Below, in pieces: positions 7,230 to 64,000 of a DNA stretch of 64,000 bases (the stretch's first letter is position 1; each line of letters starts with the position of its first letter). Where the stretch lies: positions 17,987 through 81,986 of the forward strand of contig CADAPM010000013.1 in assembly GCA_902789795.1 (NCBI GenBank), written 5' to 3'. The position numbers were made by a program, and so were the translations under genes. The DNA is from an uncultured Eubacteriales bacterium (GTDB lineage: Bacteria; Bacillota; Clostridia; Christensenellales; Aristaeellaceae). The notes below the pieces were generated by a model. That model ran no database searches. It was not told the DNA's origin and saw only the letters and a program-made list of their open reading frames with translations.

Positions 7230-11256
<4,027 letters not shown>

Positions 11257-42800: not shown

Positions 42801-42862
42801 GCCAGCACGCCCGCGTGCAGGGCAAAATACCTTTTCTTGCTGTAGTTCTTTTCCTTTTTCAT
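39824..42862 (-). CDS. membrane-anchored GH3 glycosidase with permuted domain order
   Basis: 1012 residues. An N-terminal helix (about 13-33) anchors the protein. The GH3 C-terminal alpha/beta domain comes first (VAEGVVLLRNEDSFLPL about 85-100, ...NPMELGQIEKDEYGVKACLW), then a fibronectin-III-like domain (VTVKNTGSAAGKDVVEIYAQAPY), and the TIM-barrel-type GH3_N domain last, with RTPFSGRNFEYFSEDP and the nucleophile in GIFITDYIGS (Asp861). Two more helices follow (about 935-955 and 985-1008). Domain-swapped GH3 enzymes are known in ruminal clostridia. Probable activity is exo-beta-glucosidase or xylosidase at the outer membrane face. GGAGGGAAC lies before the start. Convergent with the AraC gene. 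Confidence 0.85.
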   Translation of the reverse strand: MKKEKNYSKKRYFALHAGVLAVLLVVCILANVLTAKWDSVLTDFFGTVGGTQTTAQQGDFVSEYASEDALYQAQLDHTRRVVAEGVVLLRNEDSFLPLKAGAQLSVFGLASASGVTSGSGSGDIEIKSDTLAGALQKAGFGINAELTKFTGSTSHKHGTGAGPGGGDAMGEWKIDDIPWSEYTDEVKATFAQYGDAAIVVLNRQNGEGSDLPREMGRFGNNPDKHYLELSDEEEDLLKGIKASGAFAGTILVINAANPMELGQIEKDEYGVKACLWYASTGTDGISSVADIFAGKVSPSGRLVDTWAYDNLSAPAMQNFGDFRFLNADGTETGYSYMNYGEGIYVGYRYYETRYEDVVMGTANAGDFDYAAVVQYPFGYGLSYTSFDWSDFSVKLDGDTVTAAVTVKNTGSAAGKDVVEIYAQAPYIPGGVEKSAVVLANYAKTKELQPGESEKVTVTFRLKDIASYDFTVNKTWILDAGTYYVTAGRDAHDAVNNVLAAKGYQAPGSAAMTGKFDLAELRLLDTAVTGAKVTNQFDGDALEDAAYLSRSNWAAMENNGIRYSTNDMPGLSKNTDAVGTAGTVVITDALAAAFAQCGLHSVDLQALAAQDFPSKDDYVYGATPETPLTLVSMKGKAFDDPQWDELINQTKLSEQHLLFNNSGYGTKAIEAIQKPKTFEYDGPAGISNFITGKSGFGYNRTITLAATWNQELAKEFGKLIGEDAILTKTSGWYAPATNIHRTPFSGRNFEYFSEDPVQSGLITAAIIREVQAKGCYVYMKHFALNDQETNRGVYGQVAVFAQEQAIREICLKPFQMGVENGDAHGIMMSMNRIGTTWSGDHYNLITNVTRGEWGFDGIFITDYIGSMDVRMIDKYLAAGGDLILSTSEMKLSDVKQNWCRAYLRNAMHRVLYQQANSLAVNGLGGEDVKFEVGTPIYRIALWILMGLLAIYLIYSIIKMIQYGRMTEAEFADSRERTKKARTIKNIILGVILLAIVIVFFIVYFPLLQKAFLI

Positions 42863-42906
42863 GTTCCCTCCGCACGGCGCGACGGCCGCGGTCTTTCCTT
42901 AATGTC

Positions 42907-42946
42907 AAAACCGGGAGGGTCGGAGGTCAGTCCGCGCCCTCCCGGT
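42907..42946 (-). terminator. hairpin between the secreted protein and GH3 genes
   Basis: ACCGGGAGGG/CCCTCCCGGT (42946-42937 with 42919-42910) followed by TTTGAC on the minus strand. The T-tract is short, so it may terminate only partly and let GH3 be read from the upstream gene. Confidence 0.6.
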
Positions 42947-42967
42947 CAGGGGATGTCAGTATAGGGA

Positions 42968-43543
42968 TCAGTCGTCGTCAGAGGAGGCCGCTACGTTGTA
43001 GGTGTAGGAGCCGTCAGCGTTCACCGTGATGGAGACCGGCGTGTCATGGCCGTCGAACTTGTACAGGGGGTGGGAGAAGCAGTCCAGGGGATCGAAGCTC
43101 TGGGTCTCATCATAGTTGCTGACCCGATCACCGTTGGAAGCGCTTCCCTCGCAGTTGTGCATATAACCCAGAGGCACCAGCGGACCCCAGTCCTCAGAGA
43201 AGACGCACTCTTCCGCGACATTCAGGGTGACCTGGTCGCCGTCCTTGGTGTAGGTGCCGGTGAAGACATAGCGGATCACATAGGAACCGCCTTCGGGCTC
43301 TAAAATGGTGCCTTCAGCATCCACAGTACCGATCAGCTTGGTGTACTCATAGGTGCCATCGTCCTTGAGTACGACGGCGTTGTACTCGCTCAGGCCGCAA
43401 CCGGTGATAAAGCCGTTAAAGTCGGTCTCACCGGCCAGTTCTTCGGTGGTGTAGAAACGGGAATACACGGCGTCCTCTGCCAGGACAGAGACGCATGCCA
43501 AGGTCAGAACCAGAGCCAGAATCATAGCAGCAAACTTTTTCAT
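42968..43543 (-). CDS. small secreted protein of unknown function
   Basis: 191 residues. Signal peptide 1-22 (MKKFAAMILALVLTLACVSVLA), then a beta-rich domain: an FTGTYTKDGDQVTLNVAEE strand pair and a C-terminal VSITVNADGSYTYNVAASSDDD. The pattern of small beta-strands with G-x-Y-x-x-x-G-D-x-V-T-L resembles lipocalin-like export domains seen in this group. The ATG at 43543 has GGAGGAACACCCC upstream, so the in-frame ATG 18 nt earlier is rejected. The AEECVFSED and MHNCEGS cysteines could pair. It is separated from the GH3 gene by a weak hairpin. No family recognised. Confidence 0.65.
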   Translation of the reverse strand: MKKFAAMILALVLTLACVSVLAEDAVYSRFYTTEELAGETDFNGFITGCGLSEYNAVVLKDDGTYEYTKLIGTVDAEGTILEPEGGSYVIRYVFTGTYTKDGDQVTLNVAEECVFSEDWGPLVPLGYMHNCEGSASNGDRVSNYDETQSFDPLDCFSHPLYKFDGHDTPVSITVNADGSYTYNVAASSDDD

Positions 43544-43602
43544 GGGGTGTTCCTCCTTCATAGTCGGTACGTTGTCCGTACCTGATGTGCGGAGGATAGC
43601 AC

Positions 43603-43627
43603 AAAAAAAGCCGCATCGCGCGGCTTT
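43603..43627 (-). terminator. intrinsic terminator after the histidine kinase
   Basis: AAAGCCGC/GCGGCTTT stem (43627-43620, 43614-43607) with a seven-T tract on the minus strand, right after the kinase stop. Confidence 0.9.
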
Positions 43628-43630
43628 GTC

Positions 43631-44980
43631 CTAAGTGGTCGTTTTTTCGTCCTGACTGGTATCCGGAGGCTGGAAAATGATGCGCAGCACATACATGCCG
43701 CCGCTGGGGTCGATCCGCATCACACCGCCGTATTCCGCTGCCGTGGCCGCGATGGACCGGGTGCCGAAGCCGTGGCTGGTCTTGTCCTCCTTCACTGTGA
43801 CGGGCAGGCCGTCCTTCATTTCCACGGTGCCAACATAGGGATTCTCGCACTGAAGAATCACCAGTCCGCGCTTCTCGTGCACCGAGAGGTGGATGGCGCG
43901 CCTTTCCTCCTCAGATATATGCAGGCAGGCCTCGATGGCATTGTCCAGGATGTTGGAGAGCATGGTGAAGAGATCCACGGACTTGATGAAGCGCAGCAGG
44001 CTCCCGTCCGCCACCACGGACAGCTCGATGTGCTGCTGGGAGCAGAGCAGCGCCTTCTGCATCAGCACGGTGTCCAGCGCCCGACTGCCGGTCTGGAAGG
44101 TGCTGTCGTAGATCTGCACCGCCTGCTCGATCCCGCGGATCGCCTCCGCCTGTTCCTCCGGCGTGCCTACGGTCCGCAGAGCTTCTACCTGCCGGCGCAG
44201 GTCATGGCTTTTGCGGTTGATGATGGCGATGTTTTCCTTGCTCATCTCATACTGGGCGCGGCGCAGGGACTCTATTCGCTCACGCTCCTGGATCTCCCCC
44301 TGCAGCCACAGCTGCTGGTCCTTCCGGTATTCACTGGCCATAATGAAGGAGCAGCAGATCAGCGCATAGATGCTGTGCAGCCACTCCAGCTCCATGCTCA
44401 TGGTCACAATGCTCACGATATAGACCAGCAGAAAGGTGACGGCGATCAGCCCCAGGGACCGGCCGGCGCTGCTGGGATAACGGCCGTTCCGGCAGGTCTT
44501 CCGGGCGAAGAAACACCAGATACCGCCGTATACCAGCAGCCCCAGGACTGCGGACATGGGCCAGGAGGACCACCAGACGGCCCCGGACAGCGCGGCGCTC
44601 CCCAGCGTCTTCACACAGTAGACGACATGCTCGCTGATATAGGCGAAAATCACACAGTACCATGCCTCATGCCAGTCCGCGCCGCACATCCACCGGAGGG
44701 AAGCCGCATAGCTGCCGCATACCAGCAGGTAGTGGAGCGCGAAGAAGAGGGCGGAGAGGCTGATCACCAAAGGGCTCGTTCCCTCCTGTGCCGCCGGGCC
44801 GATCACCCGCGGCCAGAGCAGCGCCCCCAGGCCGATGCTCGCTCCCAGCATCCCCGCCAGGGCGGGAATAAACAGATACCAGCGGTGTTTCTTCCGCATG
44901 GGCAGGAAAAAGACGAGCACAGCCGGCAGCATCTGCAGTGGAAAGCCGGAGAGATAATAGAACAGCTGAGATGCTTCCAT
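43631..44980 (-). CDS. sensor histidine kinase of the GHKL (AgrC/CitA-like) type
   Basis: 449 residues: N-terminal membrane domain of about six helices (1-200), a coiled linker (QLWLQGEIQERERIESLRRAQYEM), a dimerisation segment with NRKSHDLRRQVEALRT, whose His is the likely phospho-acceptor, and a GHKL ATPase domain with LFTMLSNILDNAIEACLH (N box) and SHGFGTRSIAATAAEYGG (G box). It pairs with the LytTR regulator whose stop overlaps its start (TGATG). Kinases of this sort sense peptides or small signals. No signal-peptide gene of the AgrD kind is seen nearby. Confidence 0.88.
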   Translation of the reverse strand: MEASQLFYYLSGFPLQMLPAVLVFFLPMRKKHRWYLFIPALAGMLGASIGLGALLWPRVIGPAAQEGTSPLVISLSALFFALHYLLVCGSYAASLRWMCGADWHEAWYCVIFAYISEHVVYCVKTLGSAALSGAVWWSSWPMSAVLGLLVYGGIWCFFARKTCRNGRYPSSAGRSLGLIAVTFLLVYIVSIVTMSMELEWLHSIYALICCSFIMASEYRKDQQLWLQGEIQERERIESLRRAQYEMSKENIAIINRKSHDLRRQVEALRTVGTPEEQAEAIRGIEQAVQIYDSTFQTGSRALDTVLMQKALLCSQQHIELSVVADGSLLRFIKSVDLFTMLSNILDNAIEACLHISEEERRAIHLSVHEKRGLVILQCENPYVGTVEMKDGLPVTVKEDKTSHGFGTRSIAATAAEYGGVMRIDPSGGMYVLRIIFQPPDTSQDEKTTT

Positions 44981-45690
44981 CAGAACCCCGCCTCCAGATA
45001 GTCGCTGAACGCCTCCAGGAATTCCTTTTTCCGGTTCCGGCTGATGGGCAGCTCATGGCCGCCTATGATCACGGTATCCTTGCTGATGCGGTCGACTCGC
45101 TTCAGATTCACGAGATAAGAGAGGCTGCAGCGCGAAAACTGCAGACCGCTGAGTTCCTCTTCCGCCTCGCCGATGGTGGCACGCTTTTCAAACGTCCCTT
45201 CCGCGGTCACATAGCGCAGCGTATGCCCGCTGACCTCAATGTAGAGCAGGTCGTCCGTGGAGACCTTGACCACATCGCTGTATTTTTTCAGGTACACGTA
45301 GCGGTGGGCCTTTTTCTTATCCACCTCACGGACGGCCTTGTTCATCCGCAGCTCGAACTTCGGGTATTCCAGCGGCTTCAGGATATAATCGAAGGCGTCC
45401 ACCTCGTAGCCGTTGATGGCGTACTGGGCCATGGTGGTCACGAAGATGATGATCACGTCACCGTCCGCCTCCCGGATGCGCCGGGCGGTATCCAGCCCGT
45501 TCAGGTGCTTCATCTGGATGTCCAGGAAGATGATATCCCACCTGGCCCGGAAGTCATCCGTGATGTCCAGGCCGTCCTCAAAGCAGGTGACCGCCGTTTC
45601 CAGGCCGCGCTCCTCCGAATACCGGCGGATAAAGCCGCTCAGCCGCTCGCTGAAGACCTTTTCATCATCTACGACCGCAATGGAGATCAT
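44980..45690 (-). CDS. LytTR-family response regulator
   Basis: 236 residues. Receiver domain 1-120 with VVDDE (acidic pocket) and phospho-acceptor Asp57 in IIFLDIQMKHLNG; LytTR DNA-binding domain about 140-233 (LLYIEVSGHTLRYVTAEGTF, FSRCSLSYLVNLKRVDRIS, GHELPISRNRKKEFLEAF). It is cotranscribed with and overlaps the kinase gene. Targets are unknown; the secreted protein and GH3 genes just downstream are candidates. The start ATG at 45690 has GAGGCGGGAAAGACGA upstream. Confidence 0.92.
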   Translation of the reverse strand: MISIAVVDDEKVFSERLSGFIRRYSEERGLETAVTCFEDGLDITDDFRARWDIIFLDIQMKHLNGLDTARRIREADGDVIIIFVTTMAQYAINGYEVDAFDYILKPLEYPKFELRMNKAVREVDKKKAHRYVYLKKYSDVVKVSTDDLLYIEVSGHTLRYVTAEGTFEKRATIGEAEEELSGLQFSRCSLSYLVNLKRVDRISKDTVIIGGHELPISRNRKKEFLEAFSDYLEAGF

Positions 45691-45747
45691 TCGTCTTTCC
45701 CGCCTCGTTTGCTTTTTGTCGACTTGCCGCGCAATATCGATACATAC

Positions 45748-45776
45748 AGTATAGCACTTTTGGTCACCTGTGGAAA
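45748..45776 (-). promoter_or_regulatory. promoter of the two-component operon
   Basis: TTTCCA (45776-45771), 17 nt, TATACT (45753-45748) on the minus strand, between the upstream terminator and the regulator start. Confidence 0.6.
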
Positions 45777-45779
45777 GAC

Positions 45780-45806
45780 AAAAAAGGAAGCGCATGCGCG
45801 CTTCCT
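45780..45806 (-). terminator. intrinsic terminator after the phage-type regulator pair
   Basis: AGGAAGCGC/GCGCTTCCT (45806-45798, 45793-45785) then TTTTT on the minus strand. Confidence 0.9.
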
Positions 45807-45814
45807 GACTGCTG

Positions 45815-46330
45815 TCACACCGCTGCTTGTTCCCCGCCCTCCGCTGTCCCGCACAGCGTGCCGAGGGTCCGCTGGGCCCTGCGGCGCAGGGTCTGTTCGG
45901 TGTAGTCCACGTGGAACTGCTTCTCGTACTCCCGGGCCAGGACCGGCCAGCGCGTGTGCTCCACATAGCGGCGGGTCAGCAGGAAGCGGCCTTCCTCCGG
46001 CAGAGAGGCCAGCAGGCACTCCGTGAGGGCGTTCCGGGCCTCCAGCAAGGCGCACTCGCGCCTGAGATGGCCGAGCCGGTCCCGGTACGCCCGCATATCC
46101 TCGGTCAGCGCGTACTCCGCCGCCTTCATGCCCAGCAGGGCCGTCGGGTCGCCCGGTCCCGCGCCGGGCACCTGATCCAATGGCCGGCCCCGGCCCAGGG
46201 CCAGCAAGGCCTCCTCCTTCATTTCCTCCAGCCGCTTCTGCATCAGCGGGATGTAGCGCCGCAGGTATTCCGCCCGGGCCTGATCGGAGCGCAGGCTCCA
46301 CAGCCTCTGCTCCAGCGTTTCCTTATCCAT
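45815..46330 (-). CDS. phage-type (ArpU/sigma-like) helical regulator
   Basis: 171 residues, mostly helical: MDKETLEQRLWSLRSDQARAEY, a long central coiled region (RAYRDRLGHLRRECALLEARNALTECLL), then LPEEGRFLLTRRYVEHTRWPVLAREYEKQF...TEQTLRRRAQRTL, which resembles a sigma region 4-like helix-turn-helix as in late-gene regulators of Firmicutes phages. It overlaps the upstream gene by 8 nt and has GGAAGGAGGAAGAC before the start. Annotated by resemblance only. Confidence 0.5.
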   Translation of the reverse strand: MDKETLEQRLWSLRSDQARAEYLRRYIPLMQKRLEEMKEEALLALGRGRPLDQVPGAGPGDPTALLGMKAAEYALTEDMRAYRDRLGHLRRECALLEARNALTECLLASLPEEGRFLLTRRYVEHTRWPVLAREYEKQFHVDYTEQTLRRRAQRTLGTLCGTAEGGEQAAV

Positions 46331-50557: not shown

Positions 50558-53398
50558 TTATTCTTCTCCGGCTTCTTCCGTCACGCGCGAGAGGGCGTAG
50601 GTCTTGCCCGTATTGCTCCCCTTGGTCATCCGGATCGACATCCGGTTCGCGCTGTTATTGATGGAGATGATCCTGTAGATCGTGTCCAGGTCGTTGGCGG
50701 CCGTACCGGTGCGCAGGGTCCAGTTTTTCACGGTGTAATACAGCTTTTTGCCCTCGATCACGCAGGTGCCGTCGCTGTTGAATTCAAACTTCTCGCCCTT
50801 GCCAGACTCCCAGCTGCCGATCACCTGATAGGCGCGGCGGGTCAGCTTTTTCGTGGCCACGTCGCGGTAATCCTCGAGCTGGATGTAATAGGCGTAGGCG
50901 TCGTAGGGCCTGTCCTTGGCGTACAGGTCTTCGGCGTACTGGTAGGCCGCTTCCTGCCACAGCTCCTTGACGTCCGCGTACTTGGTGCTGGCGGTGTTCA
51001 GGTCCAGCCCGTCCAGGGCTTTCACCACCTGCTCCCAGTTTTTCTCGGCGTAGGCCGCTTTCGCCGCCTCGTAGGCGTCCTTGTAATAATCGTCGTAGCT
51101 GGATTCCGCCTGCTCAGCCGCGTCCCGGTACTCGCCCAGGGTGTTGAAGATGTCCGCCGCGCCGCTCAGGTCGCCGGCCTCGCGCCGGGCGGAGGCGATG
51201 CGGTAGGCCAGCTCGCTGTAGATATCCTCCGCGTCCTTGTAGTCGCGGATGCCGCTCAGCAGCTCGAAGGCCTTCTCGTCCTCGCTGTTGTTCAGGGCGG
51301 CCATGGCCTCCTGGTACGAGCACTCCTTCAGACTGTCCGCAGTGTAGGCGTAGCCGGGGATCTGGTCCAGGAGAGCGTGGGCGTCGGCCCAGCGCTCCTC
51401 GGCCATAGCGGCCTGGGCCTGGGCGTAGATCGCCTGCTGGCGGAAGGTCTCGCTGTCCTCATAGCCTTCGAGCAGGCTAAAAAGCTCCGCCGCCTGCACC
51501 GGCTTGTCCTGGTCCAGCAGCTGCTTCGCGTACTGGTACCGCGCCTCGTTCAGCTTGGCCTGGCTGTCCTGATACTCCGGCATGTCCGTGAGCAGGTTCA
51601 CGGCCAGCTCGTAATCCTGGGCCTCCAGGGCTTCCGTGGCCAGGTGGTAGCTGATCTCCGACAGGCGCTCATCCACGTCCTTGTAGCCTGCGATGCTCAA
51701 AAACTGGACGCGGGCTTCCTCATACTCGCCGGCCTCCAGGAGCGCCAGGGCGGGCTGGTAAACGCTTTCCTTCCGGGCATCTTCCACGCCCTCGATGTCT
51801 CCGGCCTTGGTCAGCAGGTCTTCGACCTCGTCGAACTTGCCTTCCTCGATCTTCTGCCAGGCGGCGTTCAGGTAGCACAGCTTCATCAGCTGCTCAGAAT
51901 CCTCGAAGGTGATGATCTTCTCGAACATCTCCGCCGCTTCCAGGTTCCGGCCCTCTTCCATGGCCTCCACGGCGGGCTGGTACAGGCAGCGGGTAGCCAG
52001 GCGGTAGGCGTCCATATAGTCGTCGGCCAGCAGGAAGTATTCCGCGGCCTCCTCATAGCGCCCTTCGTCGAAGAGCTGGTTGCCCACGCCGTAGTAGGCT
52101 TCCTTCAGGCGGATGGGGCTGTTGCGGTAGTTGCCCAGGGTCATCAGGGGCTCGATGGCGTCCTCGGGGCGGCCGTTGGCGATGGCCTCCAGGGCGGGCA
52201 GGTACAGGCACTCGTTGGCCTGGGTCACCGCGTCCTCATAATTGCCCAGGGTCAGGAAGTCCTCCCGCGCCAGGGCATAATCACCGTTGTCCATATGGCG
52301 CTTGGCGCGCAGGTACACGCACTGGCGCTGCTTTTCGTCGCTGTCCTTATAGCCCGCGGTCTCGCCGAACAGGGCGTAGGCCGCGTCGTACTCGCCCACG
52401 TTCATGCGCTTCTGGGCCTGCTTGTAGCGGGCTTCCTTGGCCAGGTCCGCGCTGTCCTTGTAGTCGCCCAGGGCGTCAAAGCTGTCCTGCGCGGCGCGGA
52501 GGGAGGTGTAGGTATCGCCCGCCAGCGCGGCCTGGGCCTCGCGGTAATCGCACTCCTTGACCATTTCCGCGGCGTCGGAGTAGTCGCCCAGCTCCTGGAA
52601 GGACTGGCGCGCGGACGCGTAATTCAGGTTGTTCAGCTCGCGCTCCGCCATCGTGTAGCGGTACCAGGGCAGGGCGTAGAAGTAACCGCCGGCCGCGAGG
52701 GCCGCGATGAGCAGCAGGCTCAGCACGGTGATCAGCACGCGCTTGTGGCGGCGGTGCTTCTCCTGGGCGGCCTTCTTTTCCTCAGTCTCCTTCTGCTGGC
52801 GCTCCGCCTGGGCGGCGCGCTGTTCTTCTTCCTCGGCGGCCTCGCGCTCGGAATAGATCTTCTCGATCACAGACTCGTTATAGGCGGTAAAGACCCCATG
52901 CTTGGAGCGCAGGCAGCGGGAGCAGATCTCCATGCCCGCGGGATTCGGCCTGCCGCAGACGCAGGTCCACACCTGGCCCTGGTCCGAGGGGTACACGGAC
53001 GCGTCCGCGCCCGCCAGCTCCCGGAGGATCGCCAGGCGCTTCGCGTCCGGCGGCGCGGGCAGGGCGTATTCCGTCATGTGGGTGGTGCCCCGGCGCCAGA
53101 CCGTGCCGTCTTCGAACCAGACCTTCTCCACCAGCAGCTCCATACCGCTGGCGTCGATGCCCTCCTCGACCTTGACGGACATCTCGAACGCGCAGCGGGT
53201 AGGCGCCTCCAGGCCCTGCACCCTTTCCACGTGGCGGGCGGTCTGCTCGCCGTCCTGGTCATAGCACAGGTAGCACGCCTGGATACTGACGACCGTCTTA
53301 TCGGACAAATTATATAATTGTACCGTGCAGAACGGCGATTCAGCCGTCGGCATCCTGAAATGCCACAGCTCAACCGGACAGGTCAGGTCAATTCTCAT
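50558..53398 (-). CDS. large membrane protein with zinc ribbon and tandem TPR-like repeats
   Basis: 946 residues. N-terminal beta domain (1-120), zinc ribbon (Cys146, Cys148, Cys159, Cys162 in WTCVCGR...EICSRC), acidic/basic coiled coil (about 180-218), one membrane helix (about 221-241), then roughly 16 TPR-like repeats of about 36-38 residues (250-830) with the recurring pattern L-G-x-Y-x-D-(S/A)...C-x-Y-x-x-A, and a C-terminal beta domain (845-946, GEKFEFNSDGTCVIEGKKLYY). The start MRIDLTCPVEL has GGAGGTTGTAAC upstream. The cytoplasmic zinc ribbon and outward repeats suggest a scaffold or envelope sensor. No enzymatic motif. Same operon as the acyltransferase. Confidence 0.75.
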   Translation of the reverse strand: MRIDLTCPVELWHFRMPTAESPFCTVQLYNLSDKTVVSIQACYLCYDQDGEQTARHVERVQGLEAPTRCAFEMSVKVEEGIDASGMELLVEKVWFEDGTVWRRGTTHMTEYALPAPPDAKRLAILRELAGADASVYPSDQGQVWTCVCGRPNPAGMEICSRCLRSKHGVFTAYNESVIEKIYSEREAAEEEEQRAAQAERQQKETEEKKAAQEKHRRHKRVLITVLSLLLIAALAAGGYFYALPWYRYTMAERELNNLNYASARQSFQELGDYSDAAEMVKECDYREAQAALAGDTYTSLRAAQDSFDALGDYKDSADLAKEARYKQAQKRMNVGEYDAAYALFGETAGYKDSDEKQRQCVYLRAKRHMDNGDYALAREDFLTLGNYEDAVTQANECLYLPALEAIANGRPEDAIEPLMTLGNYRNSPIRLKEAYYGVGNQLFDEGRYEEAAEYFLLADDYMDAYRLATRCLYQPAVEAMEEGRNLEAAEMFEKIITFEDSEQLMKLCYLNAAWQKIEEGKFDEVEDLLTKAGDIEGVEDARKESVYQPALALLEAGEYEEARVQFLSIAGYKDVDERLSEISYHLATEALEAQDYELAVNLLTDMPEYQDSQAKLNEARYQYAKQLLDQDKPVQAAELFSLLEGYEDSETFRQQAIYAQAQAAMAEERWADAHALLDQIPGYAYTADSLKECSYQEAMAALNNSEDEKAFELLSGIRDYKDAEDIYSELAYRIASARREAGDLSGAADIFNTLGEYRDAAEQAESSYDDYYKDAYEAAKAAYAEKNWEQVVKALDGLDLNTASTKYADVKELWQEAAYQYAEDLYAKDRPYDAYAYYIQLEDYRDVATKKLTRRAYQVIGSWESGKGEKFEFNSDGTCVIEGKKLYYTVKNWTLRTGTAANDLDTIYRIISINNSANRMSIRMTKGSNTGKTYALSRVTEEAGEE

Positions 53399-53452
53399 GT
53401 TACAACCTCCAAACTTTGAGGCAAATTTCTCCGACTTTGGAGAGAAGAAAAG

Positions 53453-53557
53453 GTAGGAAGTAGGAAGGATGAAGTAGGAAGTAATTAATGTTCTTCTGCT
53501 CTGTTCTTGCAAGAAGTAGAATTACTTCCTACTTCCTACTTTCTAACTCCTACTTTC
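53453..53557. repeat. TAGGAAG-family inverted repeat (shortened core)
   Basis: GTAGGAA heptads, core 53481-53525 (GTAATTAATGTTC...GTAGAATTAC, 45 bp rather than 54-55) and ACTTCCT/TTTCTAA heptads ending at the stop of the leftward secreted-protein gene. Confidence 0.75.
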
Positions 53558-57109: not shown

Positions 57110-57868
57110 TTATGAGTCTTTCAAAATCAATTCCACCGGGCAGTGGTCAGAGCCGAAGATCTCCTGATGGATGGTCGCGCTCTCGATCCGGTCCTTGATC
57201 TCCTCCGACACGATAAAGTAGTCGATGCGCCATCCCGCGTTCCTCTCCCGGGCGCGGAAGCGGTAGCTCCACCAGGAATACTGTTCTTTATCATCCGGGT
57301 GCAGCAGGCGGAAGCTGTCCACATAGCCCGCCGCCAGCAGCGCGGAAAACTTGCCGCGCTCCTCATCGGTAAAGCCCGCGTTCTGGTGGTTCGCGGTCGG
57401 GTTTTTCAGGTCGATGGGCTGGTGCGCCACGTTCAGGTCCCCGCAGAAGACCACCGGCTTTTCCTTCCTCAGGCTGTCGATGTAATGCAGGAACGCGTCT
57501 TCCCACGTCATCCGGTAGTCGAGCCGCTTGAGCCCGTCCTGGGAATTGGGGGTATACACCGTCAAAAACCAGAGATCCCCCAGGTCCAGCGCGATGACGC
57601 GGCCCTCATGGTCGTGCTCCTCGATGCCAATGCCGTAGCGGACCTGCAAAGGCTCTTTTTTCGTAAAGATCGCGGTGCCGGAATAGCCCTTCTTCTCCGC
57701 GTAATTCCAGTAGGCGTGGTAGCCCTCCGGGGCAAAGTCCGTCTGGCCCTCCTGAAGCTTGGTCTCCTGCAGGCAGAACACGTCCGCGTTCAGCGTCCTG
57801 AATGCCTCCTCGAACCCTTTGGTCATGCACGCCCTCAGGCCGTTCACATTCCACGAGATCAGCTTCAT
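57110..57868 (-). CDS. xth: exodeoxyribonuclease III (AP endonuclease)
   Basis: 252 residues, cytoplasmic DNA repair enzyme of the ExoIII type: [13 protein letters not shown] (Mg2+-binding Asn), FCLQETKLQ (catalytic Glu), [12 protein letters not shown] (Asp/Asn), [11 protein letters not shown] and [12 protein letters not shown] (catalytic Asp-His). The AAAGGAGGTGGCGGC ribosome site is strong. The promoter upstream carries a 20-bp sequence duplicated at the far side of the Rhs island. Likely cotranscribed with the barstar-like gene. Confidence 0.95.
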
Positions 57869-57895: not shown

Positions 57896-57925
57896 ATTTT
57901 ACATGAGGAGCGATCAAAATGTCAA
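57896..57925 (-). promoter_or_regulatory. xth: xth promoter at the Rhs island boundary
   Basis: TTGACA (57925-57920), 18 nt, TAAAAT (57901-57896) on the minus strand. The -35 box lies within the 20-bp direct repeat. Confidence 0.75.
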
Positions 57926-57932
57926 TGATAAC
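57913..57932. repeat. 20-bp direct repeat, left copy, at the Rhs island boundary
   Basis: ATCAAAATGTCAATGATAAC, identical to 63809-63828. The sequences on either side differ, so the two copies mark an exact boundary 5.9 kb apart. Confidence 0.85.
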
Positions 57933-58032: not shown

Positions 58033-58385
58033 TTAGCATTTCATGCTACCAACACCAATCGGCCTATAATCATAACCACTATCATCGAAGTAATTAATTG
58101 GATCATTACAGCAATATAAATAGTTATTATTCTCAAGCGGTTCTTGTTTATTGTTGATTAATTTATCAAAAGTTGTAAAACGACCAATCCCAGGCACATA
58201 GTACCTACTCCTGAGATAATACAACCCGGTCTCTACATCATAGACATACCCCCTGTAACGGAAGGGCTGAATCTTGCCAAGCGTTACTTTCAAATCGACA
58301 TCGCCAGTCACATCCAGCACTTGCCCCACACATCGTAAGTATAATCTATACCCACAGTATCATTGACGTCCTTGAGTTAGTTCGC
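58033..58385 (-). pseudogene. orphan Rhs C-terminal fragment, truncated tip
   Basis: An Rhs-core end fragment: DYTYDVWGK, then after a 1-nt deletion VLDVTGDVDLKVTLGKIQPF, RYRGYVYDVETGLYYLRSRYY and GIGRFTTFDKL, followed by a short tip (NNYLYCCNDPINYFDDSGYD) that ends at SMKC. The full gene for its N-terminus is absent. The same YTYD-WGK...YYLRSRYY block is present in two other places of this island, so this looks like a displaced alternative tip whose toxin domain has been lost. Frameshift at about 58340. 57933-58032 shows nothing else. Confidence 0.75.
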
Positions 58386-58494
58386 AGTTGAACCCTTGAA
58401 ACCGTACTATCCGGATCATAGCTGGTACGAATCTGAGTTTTACTTCTTATGATAAGTAATTATGCTTTAGATTCTACAAACTACTGGTTTTTAA

Positions 58495-59700
58495 TCAATC
58501 ATCATCAACATCGCCGACATCGTTTTCGGAGGGGACATAGGGACAGATTAGGCTGCCCCGCTCTGTGATATAGTACGTTTTTCCCGATCCGCGCAGACAC
58601 GCGATATACAGGCTGTTGTTCAAATCGGCGGCAAACACCGTATCAAACGGATGGCCGTCGTCCAAAAGGCTGTCGAAATGCGTATCAATGATATTAGGGA
58701 CGCCGTCTTTCTCAATCACCGCCCTACCGTTGGAAAAAGGAGCCGCGCCATCCTGTTCGACCGGCAGCATGATCTGCCCGTCCGTGTCGATAAATCCATA
58801 CAGCCGGCCAGTTCTGACCAGCGCAAAACCATCCGAAAACGGCAGCGCGTAGTCCCATACCGGTTCGATCACAACGCGTCCCTCCAAATCCAAGAAACCG
58901 TAATGCCCGTCGTTTTCAAAGCATAAACGGCCGTTAGACACCTGATCGCCCGGGCTGGTGATCTCGGGCGGCAGGAGCGTTATGTTCCCGTGCTGGTCAA
59001 GCAGGCCCAACCGGAAAAGCCCGTCCTCAGCTTCCGCTTCGATGACCGCCGTTCCCTCGTTCATCTCTGAAGCATACGCAAGAGGAACCCGGTTCACCGG
59101 CGTTCCATCAATGTACGTCAGGCTGTATCCTTCCTCGTCGCATGTCAGCAGATAATGATCAATCGACAGTGTTGCCTCGTCTGCCGTAAAAGACCGCACC
59201 ACCTGCCCTTCTGTGTCGATCACGTCCCATTGGCCGCCCGGTTTGCGAAGCAGCGCGTATCCGCCATAAAAGCCCCTCAGGCGTTCCGACGTCGGAACGG
59301 TGCGTATCGTTTTCCCGCTGCGCAGGTCAACGGCGGCTTCCTGACTGTCTGAATACAGAAGCACGATATTGTCGTGCCCGAAATCGGCGCTCGGATAAAC
59401 GGCAAACCATACAGGATCGACAGAAACCAGCCCGGACCGGCTTTCAATCCCGTAGCGTTCCTGTATGCTGATAATAAAATACGTTTCGTCCAGAGGATCT
59501 ACGGAGTCAAACACCGCTTCTTGCCTGAAACCCGTTTCACGGTCGACCCAGCCAACTTTGTCCCCTTCTTCAAAAAACGTGACCCCGTTCCATTCGTCAT
59601 ACCATTGCACAGCCAGATCAGCTGAAACGCCAGCGCTGCTATACAGCAGAATGCCAACTACGATAATTATGATGATGGAAAACCGGTTGCCTTTATTCAT
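58495..59700 (-). CDS. secreted WG-repeat protein, candidate immunity protein
   Basis: About 401 residues. Signal peptide 1-28 (MNKGNRFSIIIIIVVGILLY...SA), then WG/KWG beta-propeller-like repeats: GLVSVDPVWFAVYPSADFGHD, GHYGFLDLEGRVVIEPVW, RLYGFIDTDGQIMLPVEQDGAAPFSNGRAVIEKDG. The second of two close ATGs is chosen because GGAGG is 6 nt before it. The gene overlaps the end of the Rhs tip gene before it by 8 nt. A gene coupled to an Rhs tip is the usual place of its immunity gene, and an exported product would fit a peptidoglycan-acting toxin. WG-repeat proteins also exist elsewhere, so this stays inference. Confidence 0.7.
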   Translation of the reverse strand: MNKGNRFSIIIIIVVGILLYSSAGVSADLAVQWYDEWNGVTFFEEGDKVGWVDRETGFRQEAVFDSVDPLDETYFIISIQERYGIESRSGLVSVDPVWFAVYPSADFGHDNIVLLYSDSQEAAVDLRSGKTIRTVPTSERLRGFYGGYALLRKPGGQWDVIDTEGQVVRSFTADEATLSIDHYLLTCDEEGYSLTYIDGTPVNRVPLAYASEMNEGTAVIEAEAEDGLFRLGLLDQHGNITLLPPEITSPGDQVSNGRLCFENDGHYGFLDLEGRVVIEPVWDYALPFSDGFALVRTGRLYGFIDTDGQIMLPVEQDGAAPFSNGRAVIEKDGVPNIIDTHFDSLLDDGHPFDTVFAADLNNSLYIACLRGSGKTYYITERGSLICPYVPSENDVGDVDDD

Positions 59701-60525
59701 CTTCATCCTCCGTTACGCTCCAGTCTATTGAATCATCTAAGATATTCTTTATTTTTCGTAAAAGTCTTTCGCTTGCTATAACTCCTTTATGCCAACCACA
59801 TACATTCCAATTGCGATATTCGAATCTATCAGGATAAAACCCTGTTTTTTTAACAAATTCATGCCGTTTCGCAGAATGATAAACTGTGTCAATGTTATAA
59901 AAAACTCCTCCGTGATTATAAGGTTTTCCATCATTATCGTTTTCATCTAAAACTGCGACTATCATAGCTTCTATTATTCTACTTTTTCCTCCTATTTTTG
60001 ATATAGATAGTTCGGTGCCTTCCAAAATGTCATTTTTAAATATACTTGTCATTCCAGTATGACTCATTCCATATTCAAGGTTTTTTGCAATTGATTTAGC
60101 ACATGGACTTGAATTATAAGTGAATTTTCCAACAAATTGCCCACATCTTCTTAAAAACTCATCTGAATCAATACATTTCGGATTGTCTCTATTTGCAATA
60201 GAGTAGTCATAAATCGCCTGTAATGCATCTAAGTATTCCTGGGGATACTCTGTATAACATCCTGATGCATCTGTATTCACAATTGGATTGTTCCTGCAAT
60301 ATGCAAACATATTCGAAACTACAATACCATCCTCGTTTATAAACCTTTTCCAAAGTGAATTATAATATCTACTCCTAAGATAATACATTTCAGTCTTCTC
60401 ATCATAGACATACCCTCTATAGCGGAAGGCTGAACCTTGCCAAGCGTGTCTTCCAGGTTTGCATCACCTGTTACGTTCAGTACCTTGCCCCACGCATCAT
60501 AGGTGTATTCTACTACCACATTCCC
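59693..60525 (-). pseudogene. orphan Rhs C-terminal module with NlpC/P60-like tip (frameshifted)
   Basis: The fragment starts directly after the preceding gene's stop: VVEYTYDAWGKVLNVTGD, LGKVQP, then a 1-nt loss at about 60430 before RYRGYVYD and MYYLRSRYYNSLWKRF. The tip (about 175 residues) has SSPCAKSIAKN (candidate Cys nucleophile), KPYNHGGVFYN (candidate His) and RNWNVCGWHKGVIASE. The last motif is also at the end of the main Rhs tip (NNWQYYGWHEGILAD), so the two toxins are related. From 60388 leftward the frame is open (231 residues). It could be silent until recombined into the main gene. Confidence 0.75.
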
Positions 60526-60526
60526 G

Positions 60527-61471
60527 CTACATTTCTGGGTTCTTCAGTAGCGATAGCACATACCATGCATCATCCAATATATATTGTGATTGATGAAGAA
60601 AAAGAGGATAGATTCGATCGTTTTGTGCAGCATTTGTATCTTGCAAAAACGGTTCCTGAATGATGATTTCACGACACATTGACGAATATTTCTGACTGAT
60701 GGATAGGATGGATCCATCTGAATCGAACTCAACAGGGCAATAAAAGATGATATCTGGATTCAGAACAGATGCTTCCTGAAAACGTTCATCGTTCACCCAA
60801 TCCATTCCCTCATAAATATTGATCAGACCGCATATTTCTGAAAGCAGCGGAAAAGAGTCCTGAAAATGTTCATAATACATTGCCGTGACAGGTTGTTTCA
60901 GATCAAGTTCAGAGAATGCTTTACATATCTGGTCATATTCAGCCATAAACTCCACTGTCATCTTTTCTGCCTGTCCTTCAGCGTGAACCGCTTCACCTAA
61001 TTGCTGGAATAAATCGATTATGTCTTTTATACTTCCCGGGGTTTTGACATAAACCGTTCTCACCTGACCATTGACAATTTCCGGAATATCCCCATACTGG
61101 TGTTCATATGCCAACTGCAGATAGTCGTCGACAATGATAAGCGTGGGTTTTCGATCCAAAGTAAACAAATCATGCAGATCCATATTTGTATACAATCGTC
61201 CAGGTATATCCCTTGTTAGTTCCATCGTTGGATAGTATTCAGAAGCATTATCCCAATACTCATGTCCTACAAAGATCAGATCTGTAGGTTCAACCATCTG
61301 CAACAATATTTCTTCTGCATAAATCGGGAATACAACGATCATTTCATGCCTGAAATCATTTTGGTCCGTCACATCAGCATGACAAGGATATCCCACCAAC
61401 AAACAGATCAAAACCACCGAAATTAATAGAACAGCCAATCTTCTTCTTAACTTTATCAATCTTTTCATCAT
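60527..61471 (-). CDS. secreted substrate-binding-like protein, candidate immunity protein
   Basis: 314 residues. Hydrophobic N-terminus (RLAVLLISVVLICLLVGYPCHA, signal peptide about 1-32), then an FecB/BtuF-like fold: TDLIFVGHEYWDNASEYYPT, RKPTLIIVDDYLQ, TVYVKTPGSIKDIIDLFQQLGEAVHAEG and a WVNDERFQEASVLNPDIIFYCPVEF block. No ABC permease gene is nearby. It lies 46 nt downstream of the main Rhs tip, in the place of an immunity gene, and ends at the next Rhs fragment. GGAGAAGTTT is before the start. Either a recruited binding protein or a real immunity protein. Confidence 0.65.
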   Translation of the reverse strand: MMKRLIKLRRRLAVLLISVVLICLLVGYPCHADVTDQNDFRHEMIVVFPIYAEEILLQMVEPTDLIFVGHEYWDNASEYYPTMELTRDIPGRLYTNMDLHDLFTLDRKPTLIIVDDYLQLAYEHQYGDIPEIVNGQVRTVYVKTPGSIKDIIDLFQQLGEAVHAEGQAEKMTVEFMAEYDQICKAFSELDLKQPVTAMYYEHFQDSFPLLSEICGLINIYEGMDWVNDERFQEASVLNPDIIFYCPVEFDSDGSILSISQKYSSMCREIIIQEPFLQDTNAAQNDRIYPLFLHQSQYILDDAWYVLSLLKNPEM

Positions 61472-61517
61472 AAACTTCTCCGTTTACACAATCATACCAT
61501 TGTGAAATCGCCATGTG

Positions 61518-63717
61518 CTAGTCCGCCAAAATTCCCTCATGCCACCCATAATACTGCCAATTATTCCTTGTATATGGTGCCAGGTTGCCACAATTTGTTG
61601 TGGTATTGAAGGAATAAACAGCTGGCTCAAGACCATTGCCAAAGTCATAAAGCCCTGCATATACACCAACATGTTCAATATGATATTCACCATCATCCGA
61701 ATTGTCTTTCTTAGGTGTACCAAGGATCATACCAACTATCAGATTATTCGGCCCACCTATGTCACTTATCAAGCCGCTTGCAATCATGTTATTATTGAAC
61801 ATTGAAGAAGCACCACCGGCATAATAATTGTCTGAGTAGCCAGGTGCAATATCAAGTATGCCTGCTCGGATAAATGATGCACACCCAGTATCTTTGTTAA
61901 TATGAAAATTAGTTTTCTTCTGGATAAGTGTATCAAGGCGTGAAAACAGCTCTGATACAATAACATGCCTTTGATCCGACTGTGTCGATATTGAGTATGT
62001 CGATATAATTTCTGACAAGTTTTGTACACGTTCATTCATCAGTCTGGTTTGTTCTATTTGATATGCATATATTTCCGAAAATAAGATTACTTCTTCCTCT
62101 GTATAAGTCGATTCCTTTGTTCCGGTACTATCTGTCATATCGATGGGCTTGTTTTTGCAATAAGTGAATGAATTCTTGCTTATCATTCGATCTGCATTTA
62201 CAAACCTTCCTTGCATCGGATTGTAATATCTACTCCTAAGGTAATACAAACCCGTCTCCTCGTCATACACATACCCTCTGTATCTGAACGGATTGAGCAT
62301 ACCAAGAGAGCCGGATAATGTACCACTCATTACCAGCTTTTTGCCCCAGGCGTCATAAGTATATTTAACTACTTCCGTTCCTGTGCTGTCTATGATACCG
62401 ACTATATCCCCCTGCAGGTTATGAATGTAAGCATACTTGGTGCCGTTATATTCTACAATTGCTGGCTTATTGCTGGCATCATAGAAGAAATGCAATTGGT
62501 TATTGCCCTGGGTCATGTGCACGATGTTCTTTCCATGCAGGATGTAATCGGTAGTTGTTGTCGTTGTTCCAGAAGCAGTGGTTTCTGTGACAACCTTCTG
62601 GATCCTGAGGCCCTCAGAGTTGTAGCGGTACTCGATCTTCATATAGCCCGCTTGGCCGACCGTGCCCTTTGCCATCTCCTTCAGCTGCCGGCCGTTCTCC
62701 CAGGTATATCTCCATGTACCGTCATTCGTCGGATTCCCGATCGCATCATAAGCGATGTCAACTCCGTTATACGCAGTCAGTTTGTCTTTCCAGTTTTCAT
62801 CCCCGTAAGTATATGTAATTGTTTCCTGCGCTGTCCCAAGGGCTCCTGTGGTGTAGGCATAGCGCTTCTTGTTCAGGATGTTCCCGCCGCAGTCGTATTC
62901 GTAGGTCCAGGTCGTGCCGTCCGTTCCTGCTGTGGTGTCGCTCTGGTCGTTCATAGCCCGTTGTCTTCGCGTCTGCTCCCTGTCCGCGTGTGACAGATGT
63001 GATATTCCCCACATCGTCATAGGTGTAGGTGAAGTCCTCCCCGTTCTGCGTGATACTCTGAATCAGTCCGGTAGTCTTGCCGCTGGCATTTCCCGGTACA
63101 AAGCCGAAGGCAGTGGAATAGGTATGACCGTTCACTGTCACGCTCCTGCCGCTCACCCGGCCCAGCCCGTCATAGGTGACGTTGGTCCGGTTGTTCGTGC
63201 TGCCGTAGTTCAGCGTTGTGGGTCGGTTCTCCGCGTCATAACCAAAGGTGGTTTTGTACTCCGTCCTGCTTGCGCCTACCCGTTCGGTGAACGTGCTCAG
63301 GTGGCCATACAGCGCGTCATAGGTCACTTCGCCCGTGTACAGGTGCTGTCCGTTTTCGTGGGTCTTGATCCGCCGCGGGCGGTCGCTCAGGTCGTACTCT
63401 GTTTCCGTGATCCGGTCCAGCAGGCTGTCCTTCATCCACGCCGCCTGGCCCCGCGCATTGTAGCGGAACTCATAGCGCGGATCAGTCTCCGTGCCGTAAA
63501 CGATCCCCGTCACGCGGTTGAAATCGTCATACTCGTTGCGCACCGTGAACCCATTGCCGTAGGTCACGCGGCTATTCTTTTGCTCGTTCAAACCATTTGC
63601 ATCACCTGGCTTCCATGTTCTGTTGTTCAGTAGTAAAAGCATTGTGTGATACGCACTGCCGCTTAACATTGTACAGAAGACAAATAATACAGTGTCTCGT
63701 CTATTTCTTTGTTTCAT
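61518..63717 (-). pseudogene. main Rhs/YD-repeat polymorphic toxin with NlpC/P60-like tip (frameshifted)
   Basis: About 730 codons. The start MKQRNRRDTVLFVFCTMLSG after AGGGGGTG gives a signal-peptide-like helix. YD repeats follow (VRNEYDDFNRVTGIVYG, YGYDAENRPTTLNYG, FTYTYDDVGNITSVTRG), broken at about 62945-62990 by a deletion that changes frame. The second part continues TWTYEYDCGGNILNKK... to the core end KYTYDAWGKKL, PFRYRGYVYDEETGLYYLRSRYYNP. The tip (about 200 residues) has DTGCASFIRAG (candidate Cys), HIEHVGVYAGLY (His) and YGWHEGILAD, like NlpC/P60 cysteine peptidases that cut peptidoglycan peptides. It is shorter than usual Rhs proteins, so the gene may be 5'-truncated. Confidence 0.82.
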
Positions 63718-63741
63718 CAGTAATGGTATCACCCCCTCGAT

Positions 63742-63813
63742 ATCGTAAGTATATTCTACAACTACATTACCATTCGCGTCAACGATCTGCCAGGTATCAT
63801 CTTGTAAAATCAA
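63742..63813 (-). pseudogene. Rhs core fragment upstream of the main Rhs gene
   Basis: A 24-codon piece WQIVDANGNVVVEYTYD that stops being Rhs-like right at the YTYD junction. It marks another break at the same point where orphan tips begin. The right copy of the 20-bp repeat overlaps its start. Confidence 0.6.
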
Positions 63814-63828
63814 AATGTCAATGATAAC
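63809..63828. repeat. 20-bp direct repeat, right copy, at the Rhs island boundary
   Basis: Identical to 57913-57932. It lies 15 bp from the transposase stop. Confidence 0.85.
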
Positions 63829-63843
63829 AACTTTGTAGGTTTG

Positions 63844-64000
63844 TCAAACATTTTGGACAGTGAAGTTATGCAGGATATCCGTCGGAGAAAGCCAATGGAG
63901 TGGCCGCATCGGAAGGGAGTTGCTGTTTCTTTGGTGGGCAGCTAGCTGCCCACCAAAGTCGTCGAGAGAATAGAAAGAGTGCCTGTTATAGAAGCGTTTC
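63844..64000 (-). mobile_element. IS transposase (DDE integrase core type), C-terminal part, runs off the window
   Basis: The last 51 codons of a leftward gene: FYNRHSFYSLDDFGGQLAAH, then PMRPLHWLSPTDILHNFTVQNV and stop. The Y/F-N-R-x-R/H-x-H-S-L...P-L-x-W-x-S-P block is the C-terminal end of IS3/IS481-type integrase-core transposases. TGTCAAACATTTTGGACA spans the stop and is nearly palindromic, as insertion-sequence ends often are. The rest, including the DDE residues, is outside the window. Confidence 0.75.

Follow-up and report, generated by a model that had tools for sequence, protein, structure and literature searches.

Several described systems resemble the locus reported here. In Salmonella, a main rhs gene is accompanied by an orphan fragment and the immunity gene belonging to that fragment, and recombination takes place in the core; the switch described involves 522 bp at 95% identity (PMC3967940). 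The WapA locus of Streptococcus suis is a Firmicute case, with a full-length gene followed by duplicated, truncated wapA cores that carry other toxin/immunity pairs; two toxins of that locus were inhibitory to E. coli only after targeting to its periplasm (PMC12704120). Zhang et al. (2012) described toxin-immunity cassettes with some secreted or membrane immunity proteins. These include a Tox-NLPC/P60 class in Bacteroidetes and delta-proteobacteria, for which the accessible part of that paper gives no immunity family (PMC3482391). Listeria LrhA/LrhI is also a Firmicute Rhs toxin with its immunity protein. The globular part of LrhI is predicted to lie outside, and the target would therefore be in the envelope. 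LrhA is T7SS-linked, its toxin domain has no structural match, and the portion of the paper available describes no cassette row (PMC10327511).

The locus studied here is a 5.9 kb array at the end of the window, the whole 64,000-nucleotide stretch of DNA that was analysed. It is flanked by dnaN and xth, adjoins an IS1202-like element present in several copies, and has the following features:

57110–57868, minus strand: flanking chromosomal gene, reads as exonuclease III xth (named by eye)
57911–57930, minus strand: 20-nt repeat where the island meets the sequence upstream of xth (repeat comparison)
58033–58370, minus strand: core end copy 3 (69-nt part 58195–58263), frameshifted, with a 13-aa stub in place of a tip (alignment and TIGR03696)
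58495–59706, minus strand: immunity candidate 2 (Imm2), WG-repeat, export-like N-terminus (PF14903, E 1.8e-20; hydrophobic segment)
59693–60274, minus strand: tip 2, remotely related to tip 1 (246 aa aligned at 24% identity, E 1e-11)
60359–60523, minus strand: core end copy 2 (69-nt part 60359–60427), one base short (alignment and TIGR03696)
60527–61471, minus strand: immunity candidate 1, Peripla_BP_2 family, export-like N-terminus (PF01497, E 7.6e-10; hydrophobic segment)
61518–62147, minus strand: tip 1, NlpC/P60-like, with Cys, His and a terminal W..YGW motif (alignment and profile comparison)
62220–62288, minus strand: core end copy 1 (alignment and TIGR03696)
62379–63549, minus strand: remainder of the Rhs core, covering the last part of the YD-repeat shell; two frames, with a break near 62950 (match to a congener's Rhs)
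63600–63735, minus strand: fragment resembling the beginning of an exported protein, putatively fused to the downstream core (by eye)
63742–63800, minus strand: fourth core sliver, WQIVDANGNVVVEYTYD, ending at YTYD, without a tip (weak match, E 0.06)
63809–63833, minus strand: 25-nt target duplication of the IS (repeat comparison)
63834–64000, minus strand: end of the IS1202-like IS, with terminal inverted repeat (TIR, 63834–63859) and transposase C-terminus (TIR comparison)

In contrast to S. suis WapA, no full-length gene was found for the array, its cores are frame-broken, its organism is known from assembly alone, its tips appear NlpC/P60-like, and one partner is a WG-repeat protein of a kind not met in the available S. 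suis description (PMC12704120). An initial annotation of this DNA had set the array's Firmicute host against the known cases in Proteobacteria; Firmicute orphan arrays were already published for S. suis WapA (PMC12704120). Unlike Salmonella rhs, the array shows no main gene, and identical stretches between its core ends do not exceed 17 bp (PMC3967940).

The three Rhs core ends named in the initial annotation are real. Aligned at the DNA level, the check that it had proposed, they are 77–83% identical in pairs over 69 nt, and each exceeds the TIGR03696 (Rhs_assc_core) cut-off, which places the Rhs-associated core domain in all three. Alignments spanning 68–157 nt likewise give 77–83% identity, with exact runs no longer than 17 bp. 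A lack of DNA similarity was one of the two parts of the refuting condition set in that annotation, and this part does not hold. Every core copy has a frame break; copies 2 and 3, read from the alignment, each lack one base in the core end. Both later copies had been described as starting at the YTYD point and carrying other tips. Their starts do nearly coincide, but about nine codons ahead of YTYD (read from the alignment), and another tip follows copy 2, whereas copy 3 continues for only 13 aa after the core. One fixed start of orphan modules across species was ruled out: core fragments begin at many places.

A main gene with one tip, also part of that annotation, was not borne out, as no copy has an N-terminus. 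The longest copy begins mid-core at about 63549. Its core matches only residues 1382–1788 of the 1788-aa Rhs fragment from a congener, and the match is split over two frames (47% identity for residues 1382–1583 and 74% for residues 1592–1788). About 32 nt, counted by eye, are absent near 62950 relative to the congener, and this deletion breaks the frame. Neither an N-terminal delivery part nor a full YD-repeat shell in a single frame was found for the window array. Residues 1–1381 of the congener's Rhs were unmatched at E 0.001 throughout the assembly of the source genome, and no main Rhs gene was found elsewhere in it; as this assembly is 88% complete, a main gene may lie outside it. The frameshifts might be mistakes of metagenome assembly, but the deletion of about 32 nt is less easily put down to such a mistake.

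The frame of tip 1 is open from the core end through the stop (209 aa), and tip 2 is open across 193 aa. At E 0.001 each tip occurs in 2 of 300 family genomes, counting the source genome. The tip 2 relative (contig C72 of genome G284) is 39% identical and has a WG-repeat gene 6 nt downstream. The tip 1 relative, in G155, is flanked by a phage tail/minor-head-like protein on one side and a prophage holin (Phage_holin_1) on the other, and has no match in Pfam or PHROGs. Pfam, including PF00877, and PHROGs likewise gave no match for either window tip, and no tip relatives were found in the phage and viral-contig collections searched.

In tip alignments of four sequences each, one Cys, putatively catalytic, and one His are invariant and stand in the NlpC/P60 order. 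Comparing a six-member tip family with seven NlpC/P60 sequences of the genus, hhalign gave a probability of 94.2 (P 1.1e-7; reversed control 0.2), a value that falls to 82.0 with five tips and 52.8 with four. The reference set came from 15 matches, of which 10 were taken and 7 kept, the other 3 having no usable frame. Against an alignment of Rhs core ends the four-tip set reached a probability of 22, due to 16 residues of shared core. A profile built from the genus NlpC/P60 sequences only matched the tip of locus L077 and neither window tip in a normal search; run unfiltered on the set of six, it gave E 0.0017 for tip 1 and E 0.31 for tip 2. The L077 protein scored E 0.08 with PF00877, below the cut-off. 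Solved structures searched with the four-sequence tip profile yielded none of the NlpC/P60 fold and four weak kinase matches (E 0.29–0.7). Two AlphaFold2 models of tips had mean pLDDT of 39.4 and 34.8, too low for reading a fold. Profile comparison points to a resemblance between the tip family and NlpC/P60, weaker for tip 2 alone, and the tips are probably peptidoglycan peptidases of the endolysin kind.

In two of the three core copies, the tip is followed by a partner ORF with a hydrophobic N-terminal segment, and both tip/partner pairs are still intact as open frames. Judged by these segments, both partners look exported, in agreement with the exported components that had been proposed. GC content is 0.539 in Imm2 versus 0.333 in tip 2, so the two may differ in origin. 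Of 44 immunity candidates, 27 had their first hydrophobic segment in the initial 30 residues; among the 326 remaining ORFs of these loci the figure was 69 (P 1.1e-7). With a segment allowed anywhere, the counts were 29/44 and 130/326 (P 0.0018). This test used a simple hydrophobicity window and required a tip of at least 40 aa ending in a stop codon, and some of the ORFs in its control set are spurious. With a stricter cut-off and duplicates included (74 core ends), the partner was classed as soluble in 27, had a hydrophobic segment in 35 and was absent in 12.

A WG-repeat gene lies behind 4/5 tips scored NlpC-like and behind 0/65 other core ends, a post hoc comparison. The set comprised 79 core ends (L086, L089, L091 and L133 removed as duplicates and L135 entered manually); candidate ORFs were present at 70 of these. 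Within 1.5 kb of the core ends there were 162 ORFs, and the WG profile matched four. The Fisher value of 3.3e-6 was computed on all 79 core ends, for a pattern noticed before it was tested. Window tips 1 and 2, L135 and L077 were scored NlpC-like by a profile that was itself built with the first three; L123 was scored from a motif, and the ORF with this motif is separate from the core. Two of the four WG cases (L077 and L123) come from one metagenome bin. A further tip, at 9351–10145 of L087, shows a Cys/His pattern by eye, is unmatched by the profile or a Pfam model and has a leucine-rich-repeat protein as its partner; counting it makes the association 4/6. The WG partners in the window and L077 have an export-like start by the hydrophobicity test; that of L135 is soluble at the cut-off, with a signal peptide by eye only, and the L123 WG ORF has no export-like start. 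The portions of the literature searched describe no WG-repeat protein as immunity; they include one WG-repeat lipoprotein, unrelated to immunity.

Among related genomes, one per species, at least two core ends occur in 14 of 52 named loci. Some relatives combine one long Rhs frame with shorter modules: four in L087 and three in L099. Core ends are about 97% identical over 237–271 nt in one related array, and those of L099 share exact runs of 92–169 bp. In the window, core-end homology sufficient for recombination was not found (77–83% identity); as the longest identical run is 17 bp, tip switching is unlikely at present.

The window stops at the contig end, inside the IS. Positions 63847–63999 read by eye as the last 51 aa of the IS transposase, a piece with no Pfam match. 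The TIR is the same at 20 of 26 positions as the opposite IS end on contig C8. It occurs at five places in the source genome, and each such contig stops 97–167 nt from the IS edge. These ends (TGTAGG...CCTACA), the TIR and the 25-nt target-site duplication (TSD) agree with the IS1202 family, for which the accessible part of the description gives TGT...ACA ends, imperfect TIRs of 24–26 bp and, in one group, a TSD longer than 15 bp (PMC10132070). Part of the TSD, 20 nt, recurs at 57911–57930 and at the end of C8. We rejected this repeat as a genus-wide attachment site: a search allowing two mismatches did not find it in the 7 other genus genomes, and the IS duplication explains two of its three copies. 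The third copy, which adjoins xth, falls outside that explanation. Contig C8 carries the island's dnaN side, which there runs into the opposite end of an IS of this type, so that hardly anything apart from the IS itself would have to be absent. dnaN and xth are neighbours in two of seven congeners (G004 and G002; gene names by eye).

We consider it likely that the locus is a decayed (fossil) array of Rhs/WapA polymorphic-toxin cassettes, its tips silent and probably wall-acting and its immunity genes possibly still protective. In the past, successive cassettes of tip and immunity gene probably became attached to a full-length Rhs gene, or were pushed off it, by way of its conserved core end. 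All or part of the array now lies between dnaN and xth next to the IS, and its front part would have been lost. NlpC/P60-like tips would act on the wall of the target cell, and partners with export-like N-termini would protect the cell's own wall. From these comparisons we infer the toxicity and substrate of the tips, the immunity role of their neighbours, the silence of the toxins and the building of the array by homologous recombination.

A working locus, in which a main gene and two reserve tips recombine through the repeated core end, would fit the repetition of that core end with different tips, the open frames of tips and partners, and the better-preserved arrays of relatives, one with nearly identical core ends. 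It is highly improbable here: no main gene was found, each core has a break, and identical runs stop at 17 bp. On these points the functioning switch claimed initially, with orphan tip modules recombining into a main gene, finds no support; what is supported is a set of Rhs tips with partners, each such module opening with a remnant of the core end. The locus might instead be intact in the cell, with frameshifts and missing front arising as metagenome errors or contig breaks at repeats. The contig does end at a repeated IS, and several Rhs genes of the genus are cut off at contig ends. We nevertheless judge this quite unlikely, as the dnaN side meets the other IS end on C8, the deletion and the breaks in all three copies speak against it, and no N-terminus appears elsewhere in the assembly.

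An IS or integrase could also have moved the tip/partner pairs in, the core ends being hitch-hikers and not the substrate of recombination. The IS end and its duplication adjoin the array, the 20-nt repeat is found at both edges, and in G004 and G001 an integrase with an excisionase-like gene adjoins the Rhs N-terminus. Yet each window tip is attached to a core end at the expected place, arrays of relatives are headed by the same core ends, and in the source genome that integrase is best matched by a 48-aa piece on C19 (77% identity); this origin is unlikely. Selection may act on the exported immunity genes only, leaving the toxin parts as debris, which is compatible with a fossil array and is possible, though doubtful. 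Both immunity candidates are open while the cores and one tip are broken, and C36 of G004 carries several ORFs with export-like starts (by eye) among short core fragments; tips 1 and 2 are also open, which would be unexpected for old debris.

Taken as an array, the locus is one more degenerate case of a type of tip/immunity row already described; its two intact tip/partner pairs are more informative. The source genome is Clostridia-like, and its habitat is probably gut or rumen. A bolder reading, which we hold tentatively at somewhat below even chances, is that WG-repeat proteins with export signals form an immunity family, so far undescribed, against endolysin-like NlpC/P60 Rhs tips in gut/rumen Clostridia, that phage endolysins are one source of such tips, and that arrays like L099 and L087 are live-switching with many wall- or membrane-acting tips. 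The better-preserved arrays L099, L087 and L081 are places where tip exchange could be sought. If the tip/immunity reading is true, the pairs would define a testable class in uncultured Clostridia, in which a wall-peptidase tip is combined with an exported WG-repeat or periplasmic-binding-like partner.

The window array is a decayed representative of a known type of Rhs array, and its tip/immunity pairing is interesting and putative. TIGR03696, the Rhs-associated core, has exactly three matches in the organism's own genome, all above the cut-off and all in the window. Every array part lies on the minus strand. From right to left:

Window right end: IS end
63742-63800, minus strand: fourth sliver of core, terminating at YTYD
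Next, minus strand: exported-looking ORF fragment
62220-62288, minus strand: core end 1, in a core remnant followed by tip 1
Next, minus strand: Imm1, the immunity candidate of tip 1
60359-60427, minus strand: core end 2, followed by tip 2
Next, minus strand: Imm2, the immunity candidate of tip 2
58195-58263, minus strand: core end 3, followed by a 13-aa stub
Next: xth, a chromosomal flanking gene

The initial annotation had described one main gene with two orphan tip modules; its observation is confirmed in part, and its interpretation likewise gains partial support. The three core ends are there and alignable at the DNA level (77–83% identity over 69 nt), but no main gene was found. As read from the sequence, core ends 2 and 3 are each one base short. 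Rhs core matches occur in seven of the eight genus genomes, own genome counted. An open 1788-aa Rhs fragment in the congener G004 retains its N-terminus and carries CBM96, CBM_4_9, DUF6531 and RHS repeats, with no obvious signal peptide by eye. It matches our genome only at window 62950-63549 (residues 1382-1583) and 62379-62957 (residues 1592-1788), in different frames; a by-eye count puts the window ~32 nt short of G004 at the break. Since the completeness of the own-genome assembly is 88%, the failure to find a main gene elsewhere in it does not prove that there is none. The window ends exactly where contig C13 does (81986 bases).

Tip switching was the other part of that annotation. Pairs of window copies are 82.6% identical over 69 nt, 79.4% over 68 nt and 77.1% over 157 nt, and exact runs reach 17 bp at most. 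In contrast, a Salmonella main gene and orphan are described as having 522 bp in common at 95% (PMC3967940). Judged from these sequences, efficient homologous switching is unlikely in the window, whereas the array type itself holds up in the group. A scan with the Rhs core gave 52 named loci, mostly from metagenome-assembled Clostridia (one labelled Paludibacteraceae) and including three genus contigs (L086, L089, L091). At least two core ends on one strand were present at 14 of them, a few with two long frames. At locus L099, a 2150-aa Rhs ORF is accompanied by three short modules. Of the six core-end pairs there, five are 96.3–97.9% identical over 237–271 nt and one is 91.3% identical over 355 nt; exact runs span 92–169 bp. 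The first two tips start alike, the fourth is a 38-aa stub and the others differ. L087 combines one long frame with four modules (71–84% identity), L081 has five core ends, and two G004 contigs terminate within a common core stretch (96.7% identity over 152 aa). The array type is therefore real among relatives, and the window holds a decayed copy.

Such an array in a Firmicute is not new. Toxin/immunity cassettes and their exchange (PMC3482391) and a Firmicute Rhs toxin with outward-facing immunity (PMC10327511) are already published. The closest published system is in Streptococcus suis, whose wapA loci contain truncated duplications bearing toxin/immunity pairs; two of their toxins are reported to inhibit E. 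coli only when acting from its periplasm (PMC12704120).

Our genome has a second degenerate Rhs array at a contig end (L010 9264-11381, contig C30): in order, a candidate tip with a small immunity ORF, a core fragment and more small ORFs. By eye, one gene set seems present twice in the genome, at window 39824-45966 and L010 1-7197: genes for a sensor kinase and a LytTR-like regulator together with those for small exported proteins and a large GH3-like protein with a membrane anchor. By eye, the 984-aa ORF at window 50558-53512 combines a zinc-ribbon-like stretch with a single membrane segment and numerous short repeats. An ORF row in G004 (L035 1-5162, contig C36) resembles an immunity-only row: several starts are export-like by eye, short Rhs core fragments separate some of the ORFs, and no tip is clear.

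The dnaN side adjoins xth in two of the seven other genus genomes (G004, G002); this was not found in the remaining five. In our genome contig C8 ends with the dnaN side, and the xth side lies in the window (gene names by eye). The C8 end and the window's right end each carry one end of the same kind of IS (TGTAGG...CCTACA); 20 of their 26 inverted-repeat positions agree, and the target duplication at this site is 25 nt long. The window's TIR occurs at five places in the genome, each contig stopping 97–167 nt from the IS edge, which attributes the contig breaks to a multi-copy element. This IS1202-like element, at window 63834-64000 and at the ends of contigs C2, C4, C8, C13, C26 and C48, breaks the assembly. 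In its ends and in the length of its duplication it agrees with the IS1202 family as described in PMC10132070, which states for the long-duplication group that targets were not found. Should one IS bridge C8 and C13, the dnaN-xth island would consist of this IS and the 5.9-kb array alone. The xth junction (57911-57930) repeats 20 nt of the duplication, a third copy for which a single IS duplication does not account. Beside an Rhs N-terminus, the congeners G004 (L033 5912-8084, contig C45) and G001 (L041 6086-8276, contig C5) share one gene order, in which an HTH gene, an excisionase-like HTH_17 gene and a gene for a tyrosine integrase stand together; the Rhs locus may therefore be carried on an integrative element.

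The two window tips are relatives of each other (24% identity over 246 aa, E 1e-11) and have no match in Pfam or PHROGs. Tip alignments show one invariant Cys and one invariant His, in NlpC/P60 order. With relatives from family genomes G284 and G155 and loci L077 and L123 they form a six-member family, which we compared with seven genus NlpC/P60 sequences by hhalign. Probability rose from 52.8 with the first four members (control 0.9) to 82.0 with five (control 0.9) and 94.2 with all six (P 1.1e-7; reversed control 0.2). A profile of the genus NlpC/P60 sequences alone matched the L077 tip (E 2.6e-6) and neither window tip in a standard search; without filters, in a set of six, tip 1 scored E 0.0017 and tip 2 E 0.31. 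Tip 1 has a relative in G155 (39% over 94 aa), itself without a Pfam or PHROGs match, that sits between a phage minor-head/tail-family protein and a Phage_holin_1 gene, a position usually taken by an endolysin. Together, these observations make a good case for the NlpC/P60 assignment of the family, a fair one for tip 1 and an indirect one for tip 2.

Imm1 belongs to the Peripla_BP_2 family (E 7.6e-10) and Imm2 contains WG repeats (E 1.8e-20); the N-terminus of each is hydrophobic. In G284 a WG-repeat gene, whose start reads as a signal peptide by eye, lies 6 nt downstream of the tip 2 relative. Among 162 ORFs lying downstream of 70 core ends, the WG profile matched exactly four, all behind NlpC-like-scored tips, a pattern noticed before testing and with two of the four cases from one bin. 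Four of five such tips thus have a WG-repeat partner, the exception being tip 1; the scoring profile itself contained three of the five. At L087 9351-10145, a by-eye NlpC-like tip candidate has a leucine-rich-repeat partner instead. Our search of a limited literature set found no paper describing WG-repeat proteins as immunities. A hydrophobic segment starts within the first 30 aa in 27 of 44 immunity candidates versus 69 of 326 other ORFs at the same loci (P 1.1e-7). The WG partners and hydrophobic N-termini fit tips that would often act in the cell envelope.
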